Positions 2,190 to 62,415 of a stretch of 64,000 nucleotides of DNA are shown in pieces. A program made the translations under genes and the position numbers. Numbering within the stretch: the first letter of the stretch is position 1; each line of letters begins with the position of its first letter. The stretch spans positions 496,001 through 560,000 of the forward strand of contig NZ_JAIUGV010000001.1 in the NCBI RefSeq assembly GCF_020164745.1, in the 5' to 3' direction. Under the pieces are notes generated by a model. The model did no database searches and was not told the origin of the DNA. It saw only the letters and a list, made by a program, of their open reading frames with translations. This stretch comes from Mesorhizobium sp. ES1-4 (GTDB lineage Bacteria; Pseudomonadota; Alphaproteobacteria; Rhizobiales; Rhizobiaceae).

Positions 2190-3173
2190 ATGGCGCGTGT
2201 CATTTCGGTCGAGGCCGAGCGTTTTCCAATCGCCGGCACCTTCACCATTTCGCGCGGCTCCAAGACCGAGGCCGAGGTCATCACCTGCACCATCAGCCAA
2301 GGCGGTCATAGCGGGCGCGGCGAATGCGTTCCCTACAGGCGCTATGGCGAGACCCTGGACGGTGTCCGTGACGCGATCGAGGCGATGAGCGAACGGGTTG
2401 CCGGCGGGATGGACCGCACCACCCTGCTCGGCGCCATGCCTGCCGGGGCGGCGCGTAACGCCATAGACTGTGCCCTTTGGGACCTTGAAGCCAAGATCAG
2501 CGGCAACCCGGTGGCGAACGCGATCTGGCCAGCCCCGTTGCATCGGCTCGAAACCGCCTACACGCTGTCGCTCGGCGAACCCGAGGCGATGGCGGCCCAG
2601 GCCCGCGCCAACGCCGGCAGGCCGCTGCTCAAGGTCAAGATCGGTGGCGACAACGACATCGCCCGCATCCGGGCGGTCAGGCAGGCCGCGCCCGAGAGCC
2701 GGCTGATTCTCGATGCCAATGAAGGCTGGACCGACGACAACATCGTCGCAAATCTCGCTTTTGCCGCCGAGCAAGGCATCGCGCTGATCGAACAGCCGCT
2801 GCCGGCGGGCCGTGACGGCATTCTGCGCCACATCGGGCATCCCGTCCCGATCTGCGCCGACGAAAGCGTGCATGAGGCAACCAACCTGGAAGTGCTCATC
2901 GGGCTCTACGATGCCGTCAATATCAAGCTCGACAAGTCCGGCGGGCTGACGGCGGCGCTGATCTTGCGCGACCGCGCCCGTGAACTGGGTTTTGGCGTCA
3001 TGGTCGGCTGCATGGTCGGCACGTCGCTGGCAATGGCGCCGGCGGTGCTGCTCGCGCAAGGAGCCGATTTCGTCGACCTTGATGGCCCGCTGCTGCTTGC
3101 CCGCGACCGCGTGCCGGGTCTCGTCTACCAGGGATCGCTCGTCTTACCCCCGGAAAGGGCGCTGTGGGGCTGA
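2190..3173 (+). CDS. Dipeptide epimerase of the enolase superfamily (L-Ala-D/L-Glu epimerase or DgcA type)
   Basis: A 327-residue mandelate-racemase-like enzyme. The catalytic pair is visible as K148-x-K150 (LLKVKIG) and K249 (NIKLDKSGG), and the metal ligands as D175 (DANEGW), E201 (IEQPLP) and D224 (CADESV). A DLDGP sequence at about 296-300 supplies the DxD motif that in L-Ala-D/L-Glu epimerases binds the amino group of a dipeptide, so a role in recycling murein peptides is likely. The related rhizobial DgcA, which acts on N-acyl glutamate in D-glutamate catabolism, cannot be excluded. It is divergent from mlaE and its 3' end overlaps the tail of the convergent MFS gene by 30 bases. Confidence 0.87.
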   Translation: MARVISVEAERFPIAGTFTISRGSKTEAEVITCTISQGGHSGRGECVPYRRYGETLDGVRDAIEAMSERVAGGMDRTTLLGAMPAGAARNAIDCALWDLEAKISGNPVANAIWPAPLHRLETAYTLSLGEPEAMAAQARANAGRPLLKVKIGGDNDIARIRAVRQAAPESRLILDANEGWTDDNIVANLAFAAEQGIALIEQPLPAGRDGILRHIGHPVPICADESVHEATNLEVLIGLYDAVNIKLDKSGGLTAALILRDRARELGFGVMVGCMVGTSLAMAPAVLLAQGADFVDLDGPLLLARDRVPGLVYQGSLVLPPERALWG

Positions 3174-4385
3174 GCGCGCGGCAAGCCCGATCAGCACCAG
3201 GCCGATGATCGCGATCGGGATCATGGCCAGGAACCCGTCGGCGCCAAGACGGTCATAGAGCGGACCGGACGCAAGCGTGACGGCGGCCATGAAGAAGCCG
3301 TTGAAGAAATAGGCGATGCCCTGGGCGGCGCCGGTGCGCTCTTCGGGGACAGTTTCGGCGATCATCTTCTGCAGGCCGATCAGCACCATTGCGACAGACA
3401 CCGCATGCAGCGACTGCACGGCGAAGAAGCCCCCAACGCCAAGGCCGAGCGGCCACACCAGCGGAAAGGCGATCCAACGCACGATCGAACCGATGCCGGC
3501 AATGAGCATGACCCGCACGACGGAGACGGAGGCGAACAGACGGTTGAAAAACACGAACATGCAGACCTCGGACACAACTCCCCATGCCCATAGCAGGCCG
3601 ACGAGCGAATCGCTGATGCCGATCGATTTCCAATAGATCGAGACGAAGCCGTAGAGGAAGGCATGGCTGGCGGTGATGATGCCGACGCCAAGCGTGAAAT
3701 AGAGGAAGTACGCATTGAACAGACCCGGCGCCGCGAGCTGGATTTCTGCCGCCGACAGCGGCGAGGCCTTGCGCGGCCGTCCCAGGCGCGGCGCAAGCAG
3801 CCCTGCGATGAGTGCCGCGCCAAGGGCAAGGAAAATGATCACCGGAACGGCCTGAGGACCAGTGGCCGCCAGGATGAAGCCGCCCGCGACATTGGCCAGG
3901 AGATAGCAGATCGACCCCCATTTGCGCATGCCCGCGTAATTGGACCCGAAGCGGCGCACGCCTGAAAGCGCCAGCGAATCGGCGATCGGCGATTGCGGCG
4001 TCCAGACTATGGTCAGCAGCAACGACACCGCCAGCACCGTCGTGTAGGTCGGCGTCAGGAAGTACCCCGCGGAGAGCAGCAGCGACACCGCGACGAGCAC
4101 GACATAGACATCGGCGCGGTCCCTCGCCCGATCGGCGAGTGTCGTCAGCAGCGGCGTCGTCACCACGCGCAAAAACATCGGCGCCGCCAGGATGATGGCG
4201 ATCTGCTCGGCGTGAAATCCCTTGGCCTGCAGCCAAAGCGGGAAATAGGGCAAATGGGTGCCAAGCGATATGAACAGCGTGCCGAAGATCAGGCTCATGC
4301 GCAGTTCAAAACGGCTCGGCTTCACAAGTTGTTCGGGCGAAAGCGGTGGCAGCGGCATGAATCGATCCAATGGCGCTGCGCTCAA
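3144..4385 (-). CDS. MFS transporter, HcaT/phenylpropionate-permease-like
   Basis: A 413-residue integral membrane protein with about 12 hydrophobic segments. The N-terminal half has the SLGTHLPYFPLWLQAKGF pattern of MFS_1-like carriers of the phenylpropionate/nucleoside-type group, followed by LADRARDRAD, the loop 2-3 motif. The substrate cannot be told from sequence. It stands alone on the minus strand and overlaps the end of the dipeptide epimerase gene tail to tail, which gives no functional link by itself. Confidence 0.85.
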   Translation of the reverse strand: MSAAPLDRFMPLPPLSPEQLVKPSRFELRMSLIFGTLFISLGTHLPYFPLWLQAKGFHAEQIAIILAAPMFLRVVTTPLLTTLADRARDRADVYVVLVAVSLLLSAGYFLTPTYTTVLAVSLLLTIVWTPQSPIADSLALSGVRRFGSNYAGMRKWGSICYLLANVAGGFILAATGPQAVPVIIFLALGAALIAGLLAPRLGRPRKASPLSAAEIQLAAPGLFNAYFLYFTLGVGIITASHAFLYGFVSIYWKSIGISDSLVGLLWAWGVVSEVCMFVFFNRLFASVSVVRVMLIAGIGSIVRWIAFPLVWPLGLGVGGFFAVQSLHAVSVAMVLIGLQKMIAETVPEERTGAAQGIAYFFNGFFMAAVTLASGPLYDRLGADGFLAMIPIAIIGLVLIGLAARSAPQRPFRG

Positions 4386-53643: not shown

Positions 53644-54113
53644 AAATCCTCCGAGTGGTCCAATGGTCCAACCAATTTCTGCACAGATGGAAGTTCCTGT
53701 CAATCCGCCGTCAGGAGACGCCGCCAGATGCGACTGAAGCCCTCAAATCCAGGAGAGCGTCCTTCGGATTCTGCCGCGCATGGAAAAGCCCCGGTACTAC
53801 GGGGCTGGATGCGGAATCTGATGTCCTGGGCAAAGGGGGCCGGTCGGCGTTTGGCAGCGGTACGAGGAGGCCACTATGTGCCAGCGCCGGCCGGCCGACC
53901 CCACGGACCCAGGAGATGCGGCGGACCTGAGCATCATGGGGTATTTCTAGGGATCGAGCCGGCTGTCTACCCTCGTGCCGGCTTCGTCTTGGCCTGCACA
54001 TTTGCGCAAGAGCTTATGAAAATCAACAGTTTCTTAACCAAGGCTCGCGAATCGCTTGGATTAAGGTAAATGGGTAACCCTATTGGGTTGACCGGATAAT
54101 CAGGCTCGGGCCG
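53644..54113. other. Intergenic region with operator, otherwise empty
   Basis: A 470-base gap between the regulator gene and pleD (both minus strand). Its left end holds the operator-like repeats. The rest has short plus-strand open frames with no RBS or recognisable features. A weak inverted repeat with a 4-base loop (AACCC-TATT-GGGTT) near 54075-54088 lies past the pleD stop. Confidence 0.55.
53656..53674. promoter_or_regulatory. FadR/GntR-type operator candidate
   Basis: TGGTCCAACCA at 53664-53674 fits the FadR-family consensus TGGT-N3-ACCA. A second TGGTCCAATGG at 53656-53666 overlaps it partly and shares the left half. The pair is centred about 22 bases upstream of the regulator's start, so binding would block transcription of the whole operon. 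Confidence 0.55.
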
Positions 54114-55523: not shown

Positions 55524-55901
55524 TCAGGCATCGCCCAGATAGGATTTGATGGTTTCGATAAAGCGCGGCACCGAGATCGGCTTCGAAATATAAGCCTCGC
55601 AACCGCCTTGGCGGATGCGCTCCTCGTCGCCTTTCATCGCGAAAGCAGTCACGGCTATGACCGGGATAACGTGCAAATCGTCGTCCTCCTTCAGCCATTT
55701 GGTCACTTCCAGACCCGACACTTCGGGCAACTGGATGTCCATGAGAATGAGGTCCGGCCGGTGCTGGCGCGCTAGGTCAAGCGCCTCCAGACCGTTGCGG
55801 GTGCGCACCGTTTCGTACCCGCTTGCTTCGATGAGGTCCCGAAAGAGCTTCATATTGAGCTCGTTGTCCTCGACGATCATGACCTTCTTAGGCATCGACA
55901 T
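55524..55901 (-). CDS. divK: Cell-cycle response regulator DivK
   Basis: A 125-residue single receiver domain with phospho-acceptor D55 ([13 protein letters not shown]), acidic pair E11-D12 (IVEDNE) and a conserved Lys in ISKPIS. DivK is shuttled by the DivJ and PleC kinases and controls CtrA through DivL and CckA in alphaproteobacteria. ATGs at 55901 and 55895 are both in frame. The divK-pleD pair is a conserved alphaproteobacterial operon. Confidence 0.95.
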
Positions 55902-56140
55902 CCCGTCCCAACCGTCCTCCGCCCGGAGGTGGCCGTCATGCGTTCTTTCCTGAACGCACCAAACCCTGCTTCACTATACGGCGATATGATTGACGAAACG
56001 GAAACCCGCGGCCTGCAAAGCAACGCGAATCCGCCTCGCCTCCCGCGCGTCCAAAGGGCGCGCCACGCTCCTAATGGCTTGCCGCAAGCAACTCTTGCCA
56101 TTACTGCGGGAGAGACTCATTCCACACGACGAAGGTAGTG

Positions 56141-56440
56141 ATGGCAAACGCAGCGTCAATGCGCGAAGAGGCGGAAACCATTGCCGTGAAGGCCTTGGGC
56201 TTCGTTGCCGCCGATCCGGAGCTTTTGCCGCGCTTTCTGGCGATCACGGGAATAGAGGCGCATTCGATCCGCCGCGCGGCCGTCGAGCCGGGTTTCCTGG
56301 CCGGCGTCCTGCAGTTCATTCTCGCCCACGAGCCGACTTTGATGCGCTTCGCCGAGGAAACCGGCACGCCACCGGCGGCTGTCGGCAAGGCGTTGCGCGC
56401 CTTGCCGCTTGGCGATGACAATCATGAGCGCTCCACATGA
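56141..56440 (+). CDS. DUF3572 protein
   Basis: A 99-residue small protein with the ALGFVAADPELLPRFLAITG and PGFLAGVLQFILAHEPTLMRF blocks of the DUF3572 family, found almost only in alphaproteobacteria. It has no signal peptide or membrane segment and is probably helical. The ATG at 56141 follows a GAAGG sequence. Its stop overlaps the HAD gene by 4 bases. It is divergent from divK, as is frequent in this group. Function unknown. Confidence 0.82.
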   Translation: MANAASMREEAETIAVKALGFVAADPELLPRFLAITGIEAHSIRRAAVEPGFLAGVLQFILAHEPTLMRFAEETGTPPAAVGKALRALPLGDDNHERST

Positions 56441-57099
56441 GCGATGATCCCGAAACCGCGCGCCAGATCGAGGAACTGGCGGCTGACGACCGGCCGCTGC
56501 TGGTGCTCGATGTCGACGACGTGGTGCTCGAATTCATCCGCCCGTTTCCGCATTTCCTCAAGGCGCGCGGCTACGGCCTGACACTGGCTTCCTTCCGGTT
56601 GACCGGCAACATTGCCGAAACGGCTAGCGGTCGCCTGATCGAGCAACCCGAAGTCACGGCACTCCTGGGCGACTTTTTCGACGCGCAAGCCGAGTGGCAG
56701 AGCATCACCGATGGAGCGGCGAAAGCCCTGACGGGGCTTGGAGACCGCGCGGAAATCATACTGCTGACGGCCATGCCGCACAGGCATCGCGCCGTTCGCC
56801 GCGCCCATCTCGATGCGCTGGGGCTGAGCTACCCGCTTCTGACCACCGAAATGGCCAAGGGTCCGGCGGTAGCCAGACTTCGCGGCAAGACTGGACGGCC
56901 CGTTGTCTTCGTCGACGATCAGCCGCACAATCTGGCGTCGGTGCGGGAATCGGTCGCCGACGCAAGTCTTTTCCACCTGATGGCCGACAATTCGCTGCGC
57001 GCATTCCTGCCTTCGGTCCAGAACGATGTCATCGTCGTCCAGGACTGGCATGAAGCCGCACCGAAAATCGCGGGCGCGCTTGGGGTCAAGGCACTTTGA
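56437..57099 (+). CDS. HAD-superfamily hydrolase
   Basis: A 220-residue HAD phosphatase-like protein. Motif I is LVLDVDDVVLEF with nucleophile D25 and acid D27; motif II is ILLTAMP; motif IV is VVFVDDQPHN with two acidic residues. A helical cap of about 60 residues lies between motifs I and II. The substrate is unknown. It is translationally coupled with the DUF3572 gene through a 4-base overlap. Confidence 0.82.
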   Translation: MSDDPETARQIEELAADDRPLLVLDVDDVVLEFIRPFPHFLKARGYGLTLASFRLTGNIAETASGRLIEQPEVTALLGDFFDAQAEWQSITDGAAKALTGLGDRAEIILLTAMPHRHRAVRRAHLDALGLSYPLLTTEMAKGPAVARLRGKTGRPVVFVDDQPHNLASVRESVADASLFHLMADNSLRAFLPSVQNDVIVVQDWHEAAPKIAGALGVKAL

Positions 57100-57159
57100 C
57101 GCAATTGCGACCGGAAAAACGCTTTATACCTTTGCTTGGATTGCTCGAGGGATCAACCC

Positions 57160-58728
57160 TCAGGGATTGAGCTTCGCCCCTGCCCCGCCGTTCGCGCTGC
57201 CGCCATTGTCGCTGCCGCCGTTGTCACCGCCGCTCTCATCGTTTGCGCCGTCACCGTCGTCGACGCTGTCATCCACCGCCGGATCGGCCGGCTTCAGCAT
57301 GACACCGTTGACAGCGACCGAGCCGTCGGCCTTGGTGTTGATGATCCATTCCAACCTGCCATCCGGCAGCGTCTTGGCAAAACCCTTCGCCATGAGAGCG
57401 ACAGGCACGTATTGCCCGATCTCCGGCTCTGCCTTCGCCGCGTCCTGCAGATGCGCCATGATCTTGTCGAAGCCGGCGACGCCGACGGTGAGACTTGCGT
57501 CGGGTTTCTGGCCGAAGCTTGTCATCTCGCCCTCAAGCGCGATCTCCATGTCCTTGTTCTTGATGGTGCTATGGCCGATGACGACCTTCGGCGTCTTGGC
57601 CAGGAAGTCGGCCTTGAGCTGATCGCCGAATTCGGCCGGCAGCGGCGGGTCCTTATTGAGATCAAAGGCTTCGATTGCTTTCTTCGCCATGCTGTCGAGG
57701 TCGATGTCGGCGCCGCCGAAATTCAGGTCGACATCGGTGGGCAGCAGGGCCACGCTCCAGCTTGGCAAAAGCTGCTGCGGCACCGTCAGCCCTGAAGCCT
57801 TGATGCCGTAGCTGATCTTGCCGTTCTGGGAGACGCCGTCGGTACCGAACGCGGCGCTGAGCTGGGTCGCCCCGAAAGTGCCGATCGGGCTGTCGACCGC
57901 GAAATCCTTGAAGCCGTATGTACCATCGATGCGCTGCCACACCGGGAGCGCGGCGAGCAGAAGCGACTTGAGTTGCGCCTGGTTTGCCTTCAGCGTCTTT
58001 TCGTCTTCATTGGCCACGGCAAAGGCCAGGAGATCGAGCAGCGGCTTGGTCTGCACGCCCTTGCCGCTGGCTTCCACCGACAATTCCGGCGACTTCACGG
58101 TAACCGGAAAATTCAGTCCGCTCTCGGGATCATTGAATTTTATCGCTTCGACGAAGCTCGAAATCTTTTGCGACGTCGTGAAATCGACGCCGCCATTGGC
58201 CGCCTTTGTCGCGGACAGGGTCGCGGTGCCCGCGCCGGCGCTCATATCGATCTGCTGCTTGGCGTCCTTCGATGCCATCGTCATGCTTGAGATCGAGCTC
58301 GCGCCGCTGGTGAATGCCGCCAGATTCGGGTCATAGACACCGGAAGCCTTGCCGTCCTTGATCGAAAATTGTGTGCTTTGCAGCCCCTCGGGCCCATTGA
58401 ACTCGAAAGATGCGGTTTGCGAAAAATCCATCGAGACATCCCAGGATCCGTCACTGCGCGGCTTGACCAGCAGGGCGTAGGGCGCAAAGTCGAACTTCAC
58501 CAGCTTCTGGTCGGGAAAGCTCTGAGCCAGCGCCTTGAAATCAAACGCTATCCTGTAGGCGTCCCCTTCGGCCGAAACCTTCAGGATGCCCTTGTCCAGG
58601 GCTTGTTTGCCGACATAGCGCGACAGGTCGTCGGACAACTGCTTTGCGCCCTGGCTGTCGACGGCCTGGCCGAAAGCGGGTGCACTGAGCAGAAGCGCGG
58701 TAAAGGCGATTGGCAACACACGGCTCAC
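57160..58728 (-). CDS. Secreted protein of unknown function, paralog 1
   Basis: A 522-residue exported protein. A signal peptide (about 1-21, LLLSAPAFGQA) is followed by an alternating beta-rich region and a final Asp/Gly/Asn-rich tail that ends in GAKLNP. It shares most of its length with the protein encoded next to it (58893-60365): the same KQLSDxLSRYVGKQ and KPADPAVDDS blocks, equal order of segments, and the same ending. No known family is recognised. Start chosen as GTG 58728 with GGAGA 8 bases before; a longer frame to 58791 has no signal. Periplasmic or surface location is likely. Confidence 0.8.
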   Translation of the reverse strand: MSRVLPIAFTALLLSAPAFGQAVDSQGAKQLSDDLSRYVGKQALDKGILKVSAEGDAYRIAFDFKALAQSFPDQKLVKFDFAPYALLVKPRSDGSWDVSMDFSQTASFEFNGPEGLQSTQFSIKDGKASGVYDPNLAAFTSGASSISSMTMASKDAKQQIDMSAGAGTATLSATKAANGGVDFTTSQKISSFVEAIKFNDPESGLNFPVTVKSPELSVEASGKGVQTKPLLDLLAFAVANEDEKTLKANQAQLKSLLLAALPVWQRIDGTYGFKDFAVDSPIGTFGATQLSAAFGTDGVSQNGKISYGIKASGLTVPQQLLPSWSVALLPTDVDLNFGGADIDLDSMAKKAIEAFDLNKDPPLPAEFGDQLKADFLAKTPKVVIGHSTIKNKDMEIALEGEMTSFGQKPDASLTVGVAGFDKIMAHLQDAAKAEPEIGQYVPVALMAKGFAKTLPDGRLEWIINTKADGSVAVNGVMLKPADPAVDDSVDDGDGANDESGGDNGGSDNGGSANGGAGAKLNP

Positions 58729-58771
58729 GGGAATTCTCCGCTCGGTCGAAGGCAAAATCGTTTCCTGTCTT

Positions 58772-58800
58772 TGGTAGGCAAATACGATCACGACTGCAAG
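58772..58800 (-). promoter_or_regulatory. Candidate promoter of secreted paralog 1
   Basis: On the minus strand CTTGCA (58800-58795) and CTACCA (58777-58772) are 17 bases apart, close to the CTTGAC and CTATAT boxes of alphaproteobacterial housekeeping promoters. A related pair precedes paralog 2. Confidence 0.4.
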
Positions 58801-58892
58801 ACGATGACAATCAGGCCATCGGCTTCTGCACCGGCCGCATTTGGCGCGGCGGATGGTTCATCGACCAGCGGCACAATCTTGCCCGCTGAAGA

Positions 58893-60365
58893 TCAAGGAT
58901 TGAGCTTCGCCCCGCCCCCACCGCTATCGTCGACGGCCGGATCGGCTGGCTTCAGCATGGCGCCATTGACCGTCACGGAGCCGTCGGGCTTGGCATTGAT
59001 GACCCACTCCATCCTGCCGTCCGGCAACGTCTTGGCAAATCCCTTGACGGCCAATGCGAAGGGAAAATATTGCGCCGCCACCGGTTCGGTTTTGGCCGCC
59101 GTCTGCAGCGCCGCAACGATCTTGTCGTAGCCCGCGACGTCGACGGTCAAGGTTGCATCTGGTTTATGGCCGGGGAAGGTCATCTCGCCCTCCATCGCGA
59201 TCTCCGTACCGCCATTCTTTAAAACGCTGTGACCGACGATGAATTTGGGTGTGTTGGCCATGAAGCCGGCCTTGATCTGATCGCGGAACCCCGCGGGCAG
59301 CGGTGGGTTCTTGCCGAGATCGAATGCCTCGATCGTCTTTCTCGCCATGCTGTCGAGGTCAATATTGGACCCACCGAATCTCAGGTCGAACTCGGTTGGC
59401 AGCATTACGGCCATCCAGCCCGGCGTGACCTTGGGAAAGGTCAGGCCGGAGGCCTTGATTGTGTAGTCGACCTTACCGTTGCGAGAAACGCCATCAGCCC
59501 CGAACGTGGTGTCCAGTTGCGCCACGCCCCAATTGCCCGCGTATGTATCGAACGCGACATTTTTGAATGAATAGCTTCCGGCCATCCGATCCCACAGCGG
59601 CAGCGCCGCGAGCAGAAGCGCTTTCAGCTCTGCCTGGTCGGCCTTCAACTGGGTCTCATCTTCATGAGCCACGGCGAACGCCAACAAGTCCAGGAACGGC
59701 TTAGTCCGTATCGCTTGGGCGTTCAAATCCACAACGAGATCCGAGGCCTTGACCGCCCCAACAACCCGGCCGTCGATTTTCACGGTTTCGACGAAGTCGG
59801 CCATGGCCTGCGTCACCTTGAGGTCGACGCCTCCGTTCACCGATTTGCTGGCACCGAAATTGGAGGAGCTCGAGCCGACGCCGAGTTCCGTTACCTGCCT
59901 GGGCATGCGCGAGACCATCGTCATGCCTGCCATCGAGCTGCCGCCGCTGGTAAATGCCGCCAGTTCGGGATCATAGACGCCCGTGAACTTGCCGTCCTTG
60001 ATGGCGATCAGCGCGCTTTTTTGACCGTCCGGATCATTTACCTGGATAGATCCGCTGGTCGAAAAATCCGAGGAGACGTCCCAGCCGCCGTCGCCGCGTG
60101 GTTTGACCAGCAGCGTGTAGGGCGGGAAATCGAACTTCGGCAGGTTCTGCTTCGGCAGGCCCGCTGCGATCGCCTTCAAATCCAAGGTAATCTTGTAGGC
60201 ATCGCCTGCGGCTGAAATCTTCAAAATGCCTTCGTTGAGCACCTGCTTCCCGACATAGCGCGACAGCTCATCGGAAAGCTGCTTTGCGCCCCGATTGTCG
60301 ACGGTCTGCCCCCAGGCAGGCGCAACCAGGGCAAAACCAAGAACAACTGGCAGAACACGCTTCAA
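58893..60365 (-). CDS. Secreted protein of unknown function, paralog 2
   Basis: A 490-residue paralog of the gene at 57160-58728, in the same orientation with a 164-base gap. It has a signal peptide (LGFALVAPAWGQ), the same order of beta-rich segments, but a shorter tail (DDSGGGGAKLNP). Repeated blocks include a KxxFDxPPYTLLVKPR segment, TKPFLDLLAFAVAxED and GFAKTLPDGRMEW. The start is put at TTG 60365 because GGGGAAG lies 8 bases upstream; an in-frame start at 60395 would place the ribosome binding site inside the gene. Function unknown. Confidence 0.8.
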   Translation of the reverse strand: MKRVLPVVLGFALVAPAWGQTVDNRGAKQLSDELSRYVGKQVLNEGILKISAAGDAYKITLDLKAIAAGLPKQNLPKFDFPPYTLLVKPRGDGGWDVSSDFSTSGSIQVNDPDGQKSALIAIKDGKFTGVYDPELAAFTSGGSSMAGMTMVSRMPRQVTELGVGSSSSNFGASKSVNGGVDLKVTQAMADFVETVKIDGRVVGAVKASDLVVDLNAQAIRTKPFLDLLAFAVAHEDETQLKADQAELKALLLAALPLWDRMAGSYSFKNVAFDTYAGNWGVAQLDTTFGADGVSRNGKVDYTIKASGLTFPKVTPGWMAVMLPTEFDLRFGGSNIDLDSMARKTIEAFDLGKNPPLPAGFRDQIKAGFMANTPKFIVGHSVLKNGGTEIAMEGEMTFPGHKPDATLTVDVAGYDKIVAALQTAAKTEPVAAQYFPFALAVKGFAKTLPDGRMEWVINAKPDGSVTVNGAMLKPADPAVDDSGGGGAKLNP

Positions 60366-60404
60366 TTTAATCTTCCCCTTGTTTCCAACGACCAAATCGC
60401 TTTG

Positions 60405-60434
60405 CTGTAGAAAATACTATGTTGCAATTGCAAG
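60405..60434 (-). promoter_or_regulatory. Candidate promoter of secreted paralog 2 with palindrome
   Basis: CTTGCA (60434-60429) and CTACAG (60410-60405) on the minus strand are 18 bases apart and similar to the pair before paralog 1. The palindrome TTGCAATTGCAA (60422-60433) overlaps the upstream box and might be a protein-binding site. Confidence 0.4.
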
Positions 60435-60445
60435 TTGAAGTTCCG

Positions 60446-61021
60446 TTACAACACCAGCCGCATCAGCGGCCGGCCGGCCTTCCGCTCGACGAGCCTCTCG
60501 AAACCGGCCTTCTCGAAGACCCCAGATGAGCCGACAAACAGGCCGATCGAGCGCGAATCGCGGGACAGGTCGATCGGGCAGGCCTCGACAAGCCGTGCCC
60601 CGTTCCTCCGGGCGAAATCGATGCCGCCCTCGACCAGGCAGTGCGTGATGCCCCTGCCGCGCGCCTTGGCGCGGATGAAAAAGCAGGAGATCGCCCAGAC
60701 AGCCGGATCGGAAGCGTCGGCGGGGTCGATCGGCGCCGAGCCCCTGCCCTTGTTGTTCCATTCGGGCACGTCGGCGCGTGGCCCGATCTGCATCCAGCCA
60801 ACCGTCTTGCCATCCTCGAAAGCCAGCAGGCCGGGCGGCGGGCCGGCCTCGATGCGCGCCTTGATATGGTCCTTGTTGCGTTCACGGCTGCTCTCGCGCC
60901 TCGCTGCCGGCGCCAGTCGGAAATGCGTGCACCAGCAGCCGTAGCAGGCGCCTTGCTTGCCGAAAAGGTCCTCGAATTCAGGCCAGAGCTCTGGCGCCAA
61001 CGGCACTATGGTCGTGCTCAT
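60446..61021 (-). CDS. GNAT-family acetyltransferase
   Basis: A 191-residue acetyltransferase with a Cys-rich opening ([11 protein letters not shown]), the [21 protein letters not shown] motif A and [13 protein letters not shown] as motif B. This form occurs in many bacteria as a GNAT of undetermined substrate. ATG at 61021 gives the most conserved N-terminus. It is divergent from dinB by 65 bases. Confidence 0.85.
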
Positions 61022-61086
61022 GCGTTCTCCCCAGGCCAAGCTTGTCGCTGGCCCTGCACTGTCGTACCATTGCGTCTGTTCTCTTT

Positions 61087-62415
61087 ATGTTCGCAGCGAT
61101 GGCGGCTTCTGTCAACAATCCCGATCACGGTTTTTGTCGTGACTGCCTGATGTTTCAGCGCGGTGAAAAGCGCCGCTGCGAACGCTGCGGCAGTCCTCGC
61201 CTTGCCCGCCATCCCGAGCTTTACCGGCTGCACCTCGCCCATGTCGACTGCGACGCCTTCTACGCGGCGATCGAGAAGCGCGACAACCCGGCACTCAAGG
61301 ACAAGCCGCTGATCATAGGCGGAGGCAAACGCGGGGTCGTCTCCACCGCATGCTACATCGCGCGCATCCAAGGCGTTCGTTCCGCGATGCCGATGTTCAA
61401 GGCGCTCGAAGCCTGTCCCGAGGCGGTCGTGATCCCGCCCAACATGGAAAAATACGTCGCCGTCGGCCGCGAGGTGCGGGCCATGATGCAGGCGCTGACG
61501 CCGCTGGTCGAGCCGCTTTCGATCGACGAGGCATTTCTCGATCTCGCCGGTACAGAGCGGCTGCACGGCCTGCCGCCGGCCGTGGTGCTGGCGCGCTTCG
61601 CGTTGGCCGTGGAGAAGGAGATCGGCATCACTGTCTCGGCCGGCCTGTCCTACTGCAAGTTCCTCGCCAAGATTGCGTCCGACTTCCGCAAACCGCGCGG
61701 CTTTTCCGTCATTGGCGAGGCCGAGGCGGTCGGCTTTCTGGCAACGCAGCCGGTGACCATGATCTGGGGCGTCGGCAAGGCGTTCAACGCCACGCTCGAA
61801 CAGGATGGCATCCGCACGATCGGCCAGCTTCAAGAGATGGAGCGTGGCGACCTGATGCGCCGCTACGGCGTGATGGGCGAACGGCTCTACCGGCTTTCGC
61901 GCGGCGAGGATGTCCGCCGCGTCGACCCCGACCAGGACGCCAAGAGCGTATCGGCCGAAACCACTTTCGACACCGACATCGCCTCGCTGGACGAGCTTGT
62001 CTCGGTGCTGAGAGGCCTTTCGGAGAAGGTCTCGGCGCGGTTGAAGAAATCAGGCATTGCCGGGCGCACCGTGGTGCTGAAGCTGAAGACCCAGGATTTC
62101 AAGCTGCGCACGCGCAACCGCCAGCTCGGCGACCCGACCCGGCTCGCGGACCGCATCTTTTCGACCGGCGTGGAGCTTCTTCGCAAGGAGACTGACGGGA
62201 CGAAATTTCGATTGCTGGGCATCGGTGTCAGCGATCTCTCCGACGACGACAAGGCCGATCCGCCCGATCTGGTCGATGTCCAGTCGCGCAAGCGCGCCAT
62301 GGCCGAAGGCGCCGTCGATGCGTTGCGCGACAAGTTCGGCCGCAAGGCCGTGGAAACCGGCTATACCTTCGGCAGGGGTCGCGACGCCCATCCGCCGGAA
62401 CCGCTCGAAGATTGA
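61087..62415 (+). CDS. dinB: DNA polymerase IV with N-terminal zinc ribbon
   Basis: A 442-residue Y-family polymerase for translesion synthesis. The palm/finger motifs are [13 protein letters not shown] (catalytic Asp near 54) and SIDEAFLD near 145, and the thumb region reads [11 protein letters not shown], where DinB usually has SYNKFLAK. Before the polymerase lies a 45-residue leader with CRDC and CERC pairs, a probable zinc ribbon that is characteristic of rhizobial DinB proteins. ATG 61087 is used; 61099 is also possible, and neither has a strong RBS. It may be part of the SOS response, but no LexA box was identified. Confidence 0.92.

Follow-up and report, generated by a model that had tools for sequence, protein, structure and literature searches.

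DUF2125 (PF09898) is an uncharacterised alphaproteobacterial family whose domain model spans 319 positions. In the available part of PMC6791001 it is called unstudied and is listed beside Chorein-N in one HHsearch; in the available part of PMC12502724 it appears only within a protein list. DUF945 (PF06097) includes E. coli YdgA, a protein of about 500 amino acids (aa). No literature pairing YdgA with YihF was found, and the accessible portion of PMC10900882, from the AsmA-like literature, does not mention DUF945, DUF2125, or YdgA. We analysed a 64,000-nucleotide stretch of Mesorhizobium sp. ES1-4 DNA (contig NZ_JAIUGV010000001.1, positions 496,001 to 560,000; hereafter, the window), which carries two adjacent genes, A and B. 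Their products belong to an uncharacterised alphaproteobacterial family that, at profile level, is alignable with DUF2125 in the C-terminal half. A and B are better viewed as an ancient, diverged pair whose locus has gained and lost copies repeatedly than as the duplication including the promoter proposed in a preliminary description of the sequence.

The A and B proteins and their family

Both genes lie on the minus strand, B being separated from A by 164 bp, and each is preceded by a purine-rich ribosome site.

57160-58728, minus strand: gene A, GTG start, 522 aa, with a Gly/Asp-rich 40-residue C-terminal tail; ortholog of the M. loti clade
58893-60365, minus strand: gene B, TTG start, 490 aa, with a short tail and an AKLNP end; belongs to a separate, B-type clade

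The two proteins share 297 identities over 525 positions (57%, BLASTP) and a common GAKLNP end, and their N-termini read as cleavable signal peptides (APAFG-Q and APAWG-Q), by which both would be exported. Given this reading, and since neither protein contains a cysteine or a strongly hydrophobic segment beyond the N-terminus, A and B are most likely soluble, Sec-exported periplasmic proteins. The preliminary description had recognised exported paralogs with a common AKLNP end, as is the case; of the periplasmic or surface role it suggested, the periplasmic one is the likelier, while a surface role found no support. Identity between A and B varies by region: 68% at residues 22-95, 42% at 96-225 (beta), 78% at 226-262 (helices), 59% at 263-403, 71% at 404-482, and 35% in the tail, which in A is acidic and flexible. 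The beta stretch 96-225 is thus the least conserved part within the folded region (42% versus 59-78% elsewhere there). When the source genome was searched with A, these two were the only copies.

Scans of A and B against Pfam and PHROGs returned no family (for Pfam, nothing at E up to 1), and the sole NCBIfam row was a chance acylphosphatase match for B (E 0.029, far under the cut-off). The Pfam gathering cut-offs are 24.2 bits for DUF2125 and 26.8 bits for DUF945. Nine of 33 diverse relatives matched DUF2125 at E up to 1 (best E 1.3e-7), and two of the 20 among them that were scanned singly scored above its cut-off (L055, 31.9 bits; L052, 25.6 bits); both are retrieved by a search with A (E 1e-70 and 2e-82). 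For profile work, alignment A3 comprised A, B, one L031 copy, and 30 of 32 non-Mesorhizobium stretches (L049 and the truncated second L104 copy were omitted, and the split L051 was not in the source list), the DUF2125 set comprised 29 of 30 loci (L135 omitted), and the DUF945 set 16 of 17 loci (L166 omitted) plus YdgA. In hhalign, the A/B family aligned with the 29 DUF2125 proteins along 193 C-terminal-half columns at a probability of 94.2% (E 1.1e-7). Control values were 5.0% with the reversed family, no more than 1.6% with four unrelated families, and no more than 1.1% with 20 column-shuffled versions. A link test used four long proteins that pass the DUF2125 cut-off, two in tandem from genome G526 and two from G508. 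The G526 proteins (28.6 and 32.1 bits to DUF2125) matched the A/B family profile at E 2e-14 and 3e-13, and the four proteins aligned together gave 98.2% to the A/B family and 97.6% to DUF2125.

On these comparisons, in which kin of A and B pass the DUF2125 cut-off and the profiles align, A and B are relatives of DUF2125 via the C-terminal half and not members of it by the curated cut-off. The earlier remark that no family could be recognised stands for A and B themselves at curated cut-offs, but not for those of their kin that pass. Unlike DUF2125, A and B are 490-522 aa long, have an extra N-terminal half, and do not match the model. They also carry a signal peptide where most DUF2125 proteins carry an anchor: an N-terminal hydrophobic stretch reading as an anchor (19 residues, mean hydropathy at least 1.6, a criterion read from the fetched proteins and not curated) was found in 25 of 29. 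DUF945 and YdgA are similar to A and B in length, but the latter have no Pfam match, and only two of the 33 relatives matched DUF945 at E up to 1, the best at 19.7 bits and the other at 17.1 bits, both under the cut-off; hhalign of the A/B family against DUF945 gave 41.2%, with 1.1% for the reversed control.

The B query matched 133 of 146 Mesorhizobium genomes (the window's own counted), although A and B match no Pfam or NCBIfam model. Eleven of the 13 genomes without a match are no larger than 4.8 Mb. Searching with A gave matches in 43 of 199 genomes sampled across the family and in 17 of 150 sampled across the order (own genome counted). A plasmid search gave eight records, all at 29% identity or less, seven annotated as hypothetical protein and one unannotated. 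In five records (G215, G221, G295, G064, and L035) the gene is in two pieces, through real decay or assembly errors. Tandem relatives occur elsewhere in the order and class (L139, at 747-2342 and 2406-3989, L148, G409, and G444), so pairing recurs in the A/B family.

History of the pair

The preliminary description had called for the pair to be sought in other Mesorhizobium genomes; two complete adjacent copies are present in three of the 146, namely the window's genome, G302, and G233. In a protein tree of 68 rows, built from the loci examined rather than all the matching genomes and omitting L035 (split gene), L042, L043, and short or identical rows, A was placed among M. loti-type strains, adjoining L036 and L101. 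B was placed in a six-row clade (100/100) with the G302 copy of B and with G246, G311, G249, and G338, the last four of which hold one copy each. Synonymous divergence (dS) between A and B is ~1.05. For the window against G302, A has a dS of 0.40, B one of 0.36, and three neighbouring genes have values of 0.27-0.34. Because these values are alike, both copies were most likely already present in the window/G302 common ancestor. The corresponding ratios of nonsynonymous to synonymous divergence (omega), 0.13 for A and 0.21 for B, reveal purifying selection on both. Thus, the two genes have diverged from each other, as had been proposed, and both are kept by selection.

These data bear on the first proposal, a recent local duplication retained for gene dose. 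A and B are adjacent, on the same strand, and have in common promoter-like boxes and the C-terminal end, all of which would fit such an event. However, the two lie in separate supported clades, they are only 57% identical with a dS of ~1.05, the B-type gene is the only copy in four other genomes, and the boxes also precede single-copy relatives. We regard a recent duplication as extremely improbable, and the claim that dose matters was not upheld.

The surroundings of the pair provide further information on its origin. The following features flank or separate the two genes; the first two are considered to be outside the A/B system.

60446-61039, minus strand: GNAT acetyltransferase, upstream flank of the locus
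56437-57099, plus strand: convergent gene for a 220-aa protein, downstream flank; DUF2608 match over 43 residues at 27.6 bits (cut-off 22.6)
58811-58841, minus strand: possible degenerate remnant of a GNAT 3' end between B and A; alignment with L003 over 30 bp, 90%, E 1e-6

Taken alone, the remnant in the window is a 12-bp match (E 6.8, not significant), and its recognition rests on the alignment with L003 and G302. G233 has a 75-bp GNAT 3' remnant between its two copies. In strain WSM3626 (L003), which is sister to G302 on both the protein tree and the neighbour tree described below, B has been lost, leaving a deletion scar (L003 3700-4010) in which the GNAT end and the B leader are fused to the last B codons and followed by the A leader. 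L013 (3650-4010) contains the apparent start and end of another lost copy, the end being recognised through short matches (E 6e-5 and 0.008) and the start by eye. A second tandem pair is that of M. neociceri/G233. A remnant in this position may mark the junction created when recombination brought B beside A. B would then have arrived through recombination in the adjoining GNAT gene, at its 3' end, probably in an ancestor of the M. loti-type group, and would later have been lost in most descendants.

Where B came from may be viewed in another way. A B-type allele from a different Mesorhizobium lineage could have come in via homologous recombination within the GNAT 3' end, with the resident A retained, in an ancestor of the window, G302, and WSM3626; protein function would be the same, and only the history would differ from that of a tandem pair sorted by loss. 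In a tree of neighbouring genes (DinB, GNAT, and DUF3572; seven of 45 taxa, which lack DinB or GNAT on the stretch, were omitted, as was L143, apparently the same assembly as L031), the four single-copy B-type genomes occupy three separate places, in favour of this account. In three of them the flanking genes on either side are the same; in G338 only the downstream flank is retained, the GNAT gene being ~4.4 kb off. The GNAT 3' remnants in G233 and, in degenerate form, in the window group also agree with such an exchange. On the other hand, the dS of B is as large as those of A and the neighbours, so any entry must predate the window/G302 split, and the second tandem pair together with the vestige in L013 point to repeated gain and loss of pairs, which suits old paralogs sorted by loss equally well. 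We put entry from another lineage only slightly below an even chance.

The setting of the locus is otherwise largely conserved. Among 38 Mesorhizobium loci, the GNAT gene is present at 33, the convergent 220-aa gene (whose product, through its DUF2608 match, we take to be HAD-like) at 31, and DUF3572 and divK at 37 each; the upstream side differs at five. Median identity to the window (55527-62412) is 82.9% for A (n = 38), 92.4% for GNAT (33), 94.5% for DinB (31), and 99.2% for the DivK-like protein (37), and A is the least similar of A, GNAT, and DinB at 31 of 31 loci. The family gene has a higher rate of evolution than the genes around it. Elsewhere in the window (53833-53944, minus strand), Rfam model RF02500 (Atu_C6, described as small RNA EcpR1) matched at 107.9 bits (cut-off 60).

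Promoter-like boxes upstream of A and B

The σ70 promoter consensus of S. meliloti is given as CTTGAC-N17-CTATAT in the available part of PMC2873474. Similar pairs of boxes precede both genes of the window.

58800-58774, minus strand: CTTGCA-N17-CTAC ahead of A; many relatives have near forms with N17
60434-60407, minus strand: CTTGCA-N18-CTAC upstream of B; CTTGCA is missing from the G302 ortholog

As in the S. meliloti consensus, the first box starts with CTTG, the second with CTA, and the spacer upstream of A is N17. The boxes differ from it in that CTTGCA and CTACCA match only partially and the spacer upstream of B is N18. When both strands of the window were searched for CTTGCA-N17/18-CTAC, these two sites were the only matches, in agreement with the boxes at 17-18 bases first reported. 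The near form CTTGC[AG]-N16..18-CTAC was present in 35 of 66 distinct Mesorhizobium upstream regions, counting the two of the window; the spacer was N17 in 34 of these, and the form ended 40-49 bases ahead of the start codon. In 200 base shuffles the count averaged 0.075 and never exceeded 2. The near form was absent from the other 31 regions, including that of the G302 ortholog of B, the nearest to B. Because the 66 regions are related, the recurrence of the boxes represents conservation rather than independent recurrence. Outside the boxes, the regions upstream of A and B are only loosely alike; of the upstream likeness originally noted, the boxes were substantiated. A TTGACA/TATAAT scan found no site upstream of A or B, and a terminator scan found none between B and A. 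Judging from the boxes, each gene may be expressed from its own σ70-like promoter.

In an M. ciceri-like group (L011, L016, L019, L098, and partly L088), a palindromic repeat of the ATGCATGTCG ... CGACATGCAT type, with AAAGCGCATGCGCTTT ahead in most, lies directly upstream of the start codon.

Predicted fold and proposed role

AlphaFold modelling of mature B with 34 other rows gave a predicted local distance difference test score (pLDDT) of 85.2 and a predicted template modelling score (pTM) of 0.73. The model has 21 predicted strands, six of them of 15-20 residues, in the order N-terminal helices, a long strand meander, a helical block, more strands, and a helix-strand unit at the C-terminus. 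For full A, the model is weaker (pLDDT 70). A search of solved structures by sequence returned nothing meaningful (best E 0.98 and 0.11). In structural comparison by VIA-align, the best rows for both models were largely outer-membrane barrels, and also lipid-particle sheets (top Z 13.4 and 10.4). The root-mean-square deviation (rmsd) of these rows is mostly 6-11 Å, and they may reflect a common arrangement only. JlpA (3uau) was among the listed fold-search rows for A only, and a literature search for JlpA with two structural phrases found nothing.

Such rows raise the question of whether A and B could be outer-membrane beta-barrels or surface-exposed, adhesin-like proteins. A signal peptide and six strands of 15-20 residues would fit a barrel, and barrels dominate the best VIA-align rows. 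Yet the high rmsd of those rows, none of which is reproduced at Foldseek E 0.001, the helical blocks that interrupt the strands in the model, and the N-terminal hydrophobic anchor of most DUF2125 relatives argue against this assignment. Outer-membrane barrels usually end in an aromatic residue of the last strand, and A and B end in AKLNP. We consider a barrel or adhesin very unlikely.

Of the 21 strands predicted on A, 17 were evaluated for alternation of hydrophobicity, all except four short ones (3-4 residues) at the end. Summed over these strands, it was above that of all 2000 shuffles, indicating that the strands are amphipathic in sum; singly, 8 of the 17 reached p <0.1. Amphipathic strands combined with the region-wise identity suggest a scaffold for a hydrophobic ligand with diverged specificity. 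The A/B protein would consist of helices and a beta-sheet scaffold, curved and amphipathic, in which a hydrophobic ligand is held. This ligand would most likely be a lipid or lipid-linked precursor, and the protein would carry or present it within the envelope. Since divergence is greatest in the beta sheet, A and B may differ in ligand. The long amphipathic periplasmic beta sheet predicted for A and B would resemble that of the AsmA-like/Chorein-N and TULIP lipid-transfer proteins of the diderm envelope; in contrast to these, A and B have no anchor, and no significant fold match was obtained.

Our best overall explanation is that A and B, members of an uncharacterised family of alphaproteobacterial hydrophobic-ligand scaffolds, diverged long ago and were brought together by recombination in the GNAT end. 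We hold it tentatively, as appreciably less than an even bet, and several observations count against it. Neither a ligand nor a phenotype nor any expression result came to light for the A/B family. Nine of the 17 strands taken singly have p >0.1, and amphipathic strands are common to most beta-sheets. Foldseek comparison of the A and B models with the PDB gave nothing at E ≤0.001 (best E 0.12 and 0.023). The N-terminal half of the family has no demonstrated relative, and of the two long G508 proteins one matched the A/B family weakly (E 6e-4) and the other did not match at E 0.1. The Chorein-N link in the part of PMC6791001 cited above is a weak one (56% and 45%) involving the DUF2993 N-terminus; A and B, by contrast, show homology to the C-terminal half of DUF2125. 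Finally, neighbourhoods outside Mesorhizobium (1.5 kb each side) contain no constant partner gene, the neighbours varying by genus.

A structural or chaperone-like periplasmic protein, with a sheet that binds proteins rather than lipids, must also be weighed. Protein binding would also fit an amphipathic sheet and a tail that, in A, is acidic and flexible; against it, a conserved partner gene was not found in the neighbourhoods outside the genus. We judge this possibility doubtful, though by no means slight.

The most specific form of the ligand-scaffold proposal, that A and B are periplasmic carriers of lipids or lipid precursors with different cargo, the two types being sorted among Mesorhizobium lineages, appears unlikely at present. 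If it is true, Mesorhizobium lineages have kept A, B, or both at one locus by cargo type, and seemingly orthologous single-copy genes in sister species would carry different cargo. The sorting of A and B at one locus, where the same place can hold a different paralog, warns against the transfer of function by synteny. The relationship to DUF2125 provides a common framework for hitherto unstudied proteins of the envelope.

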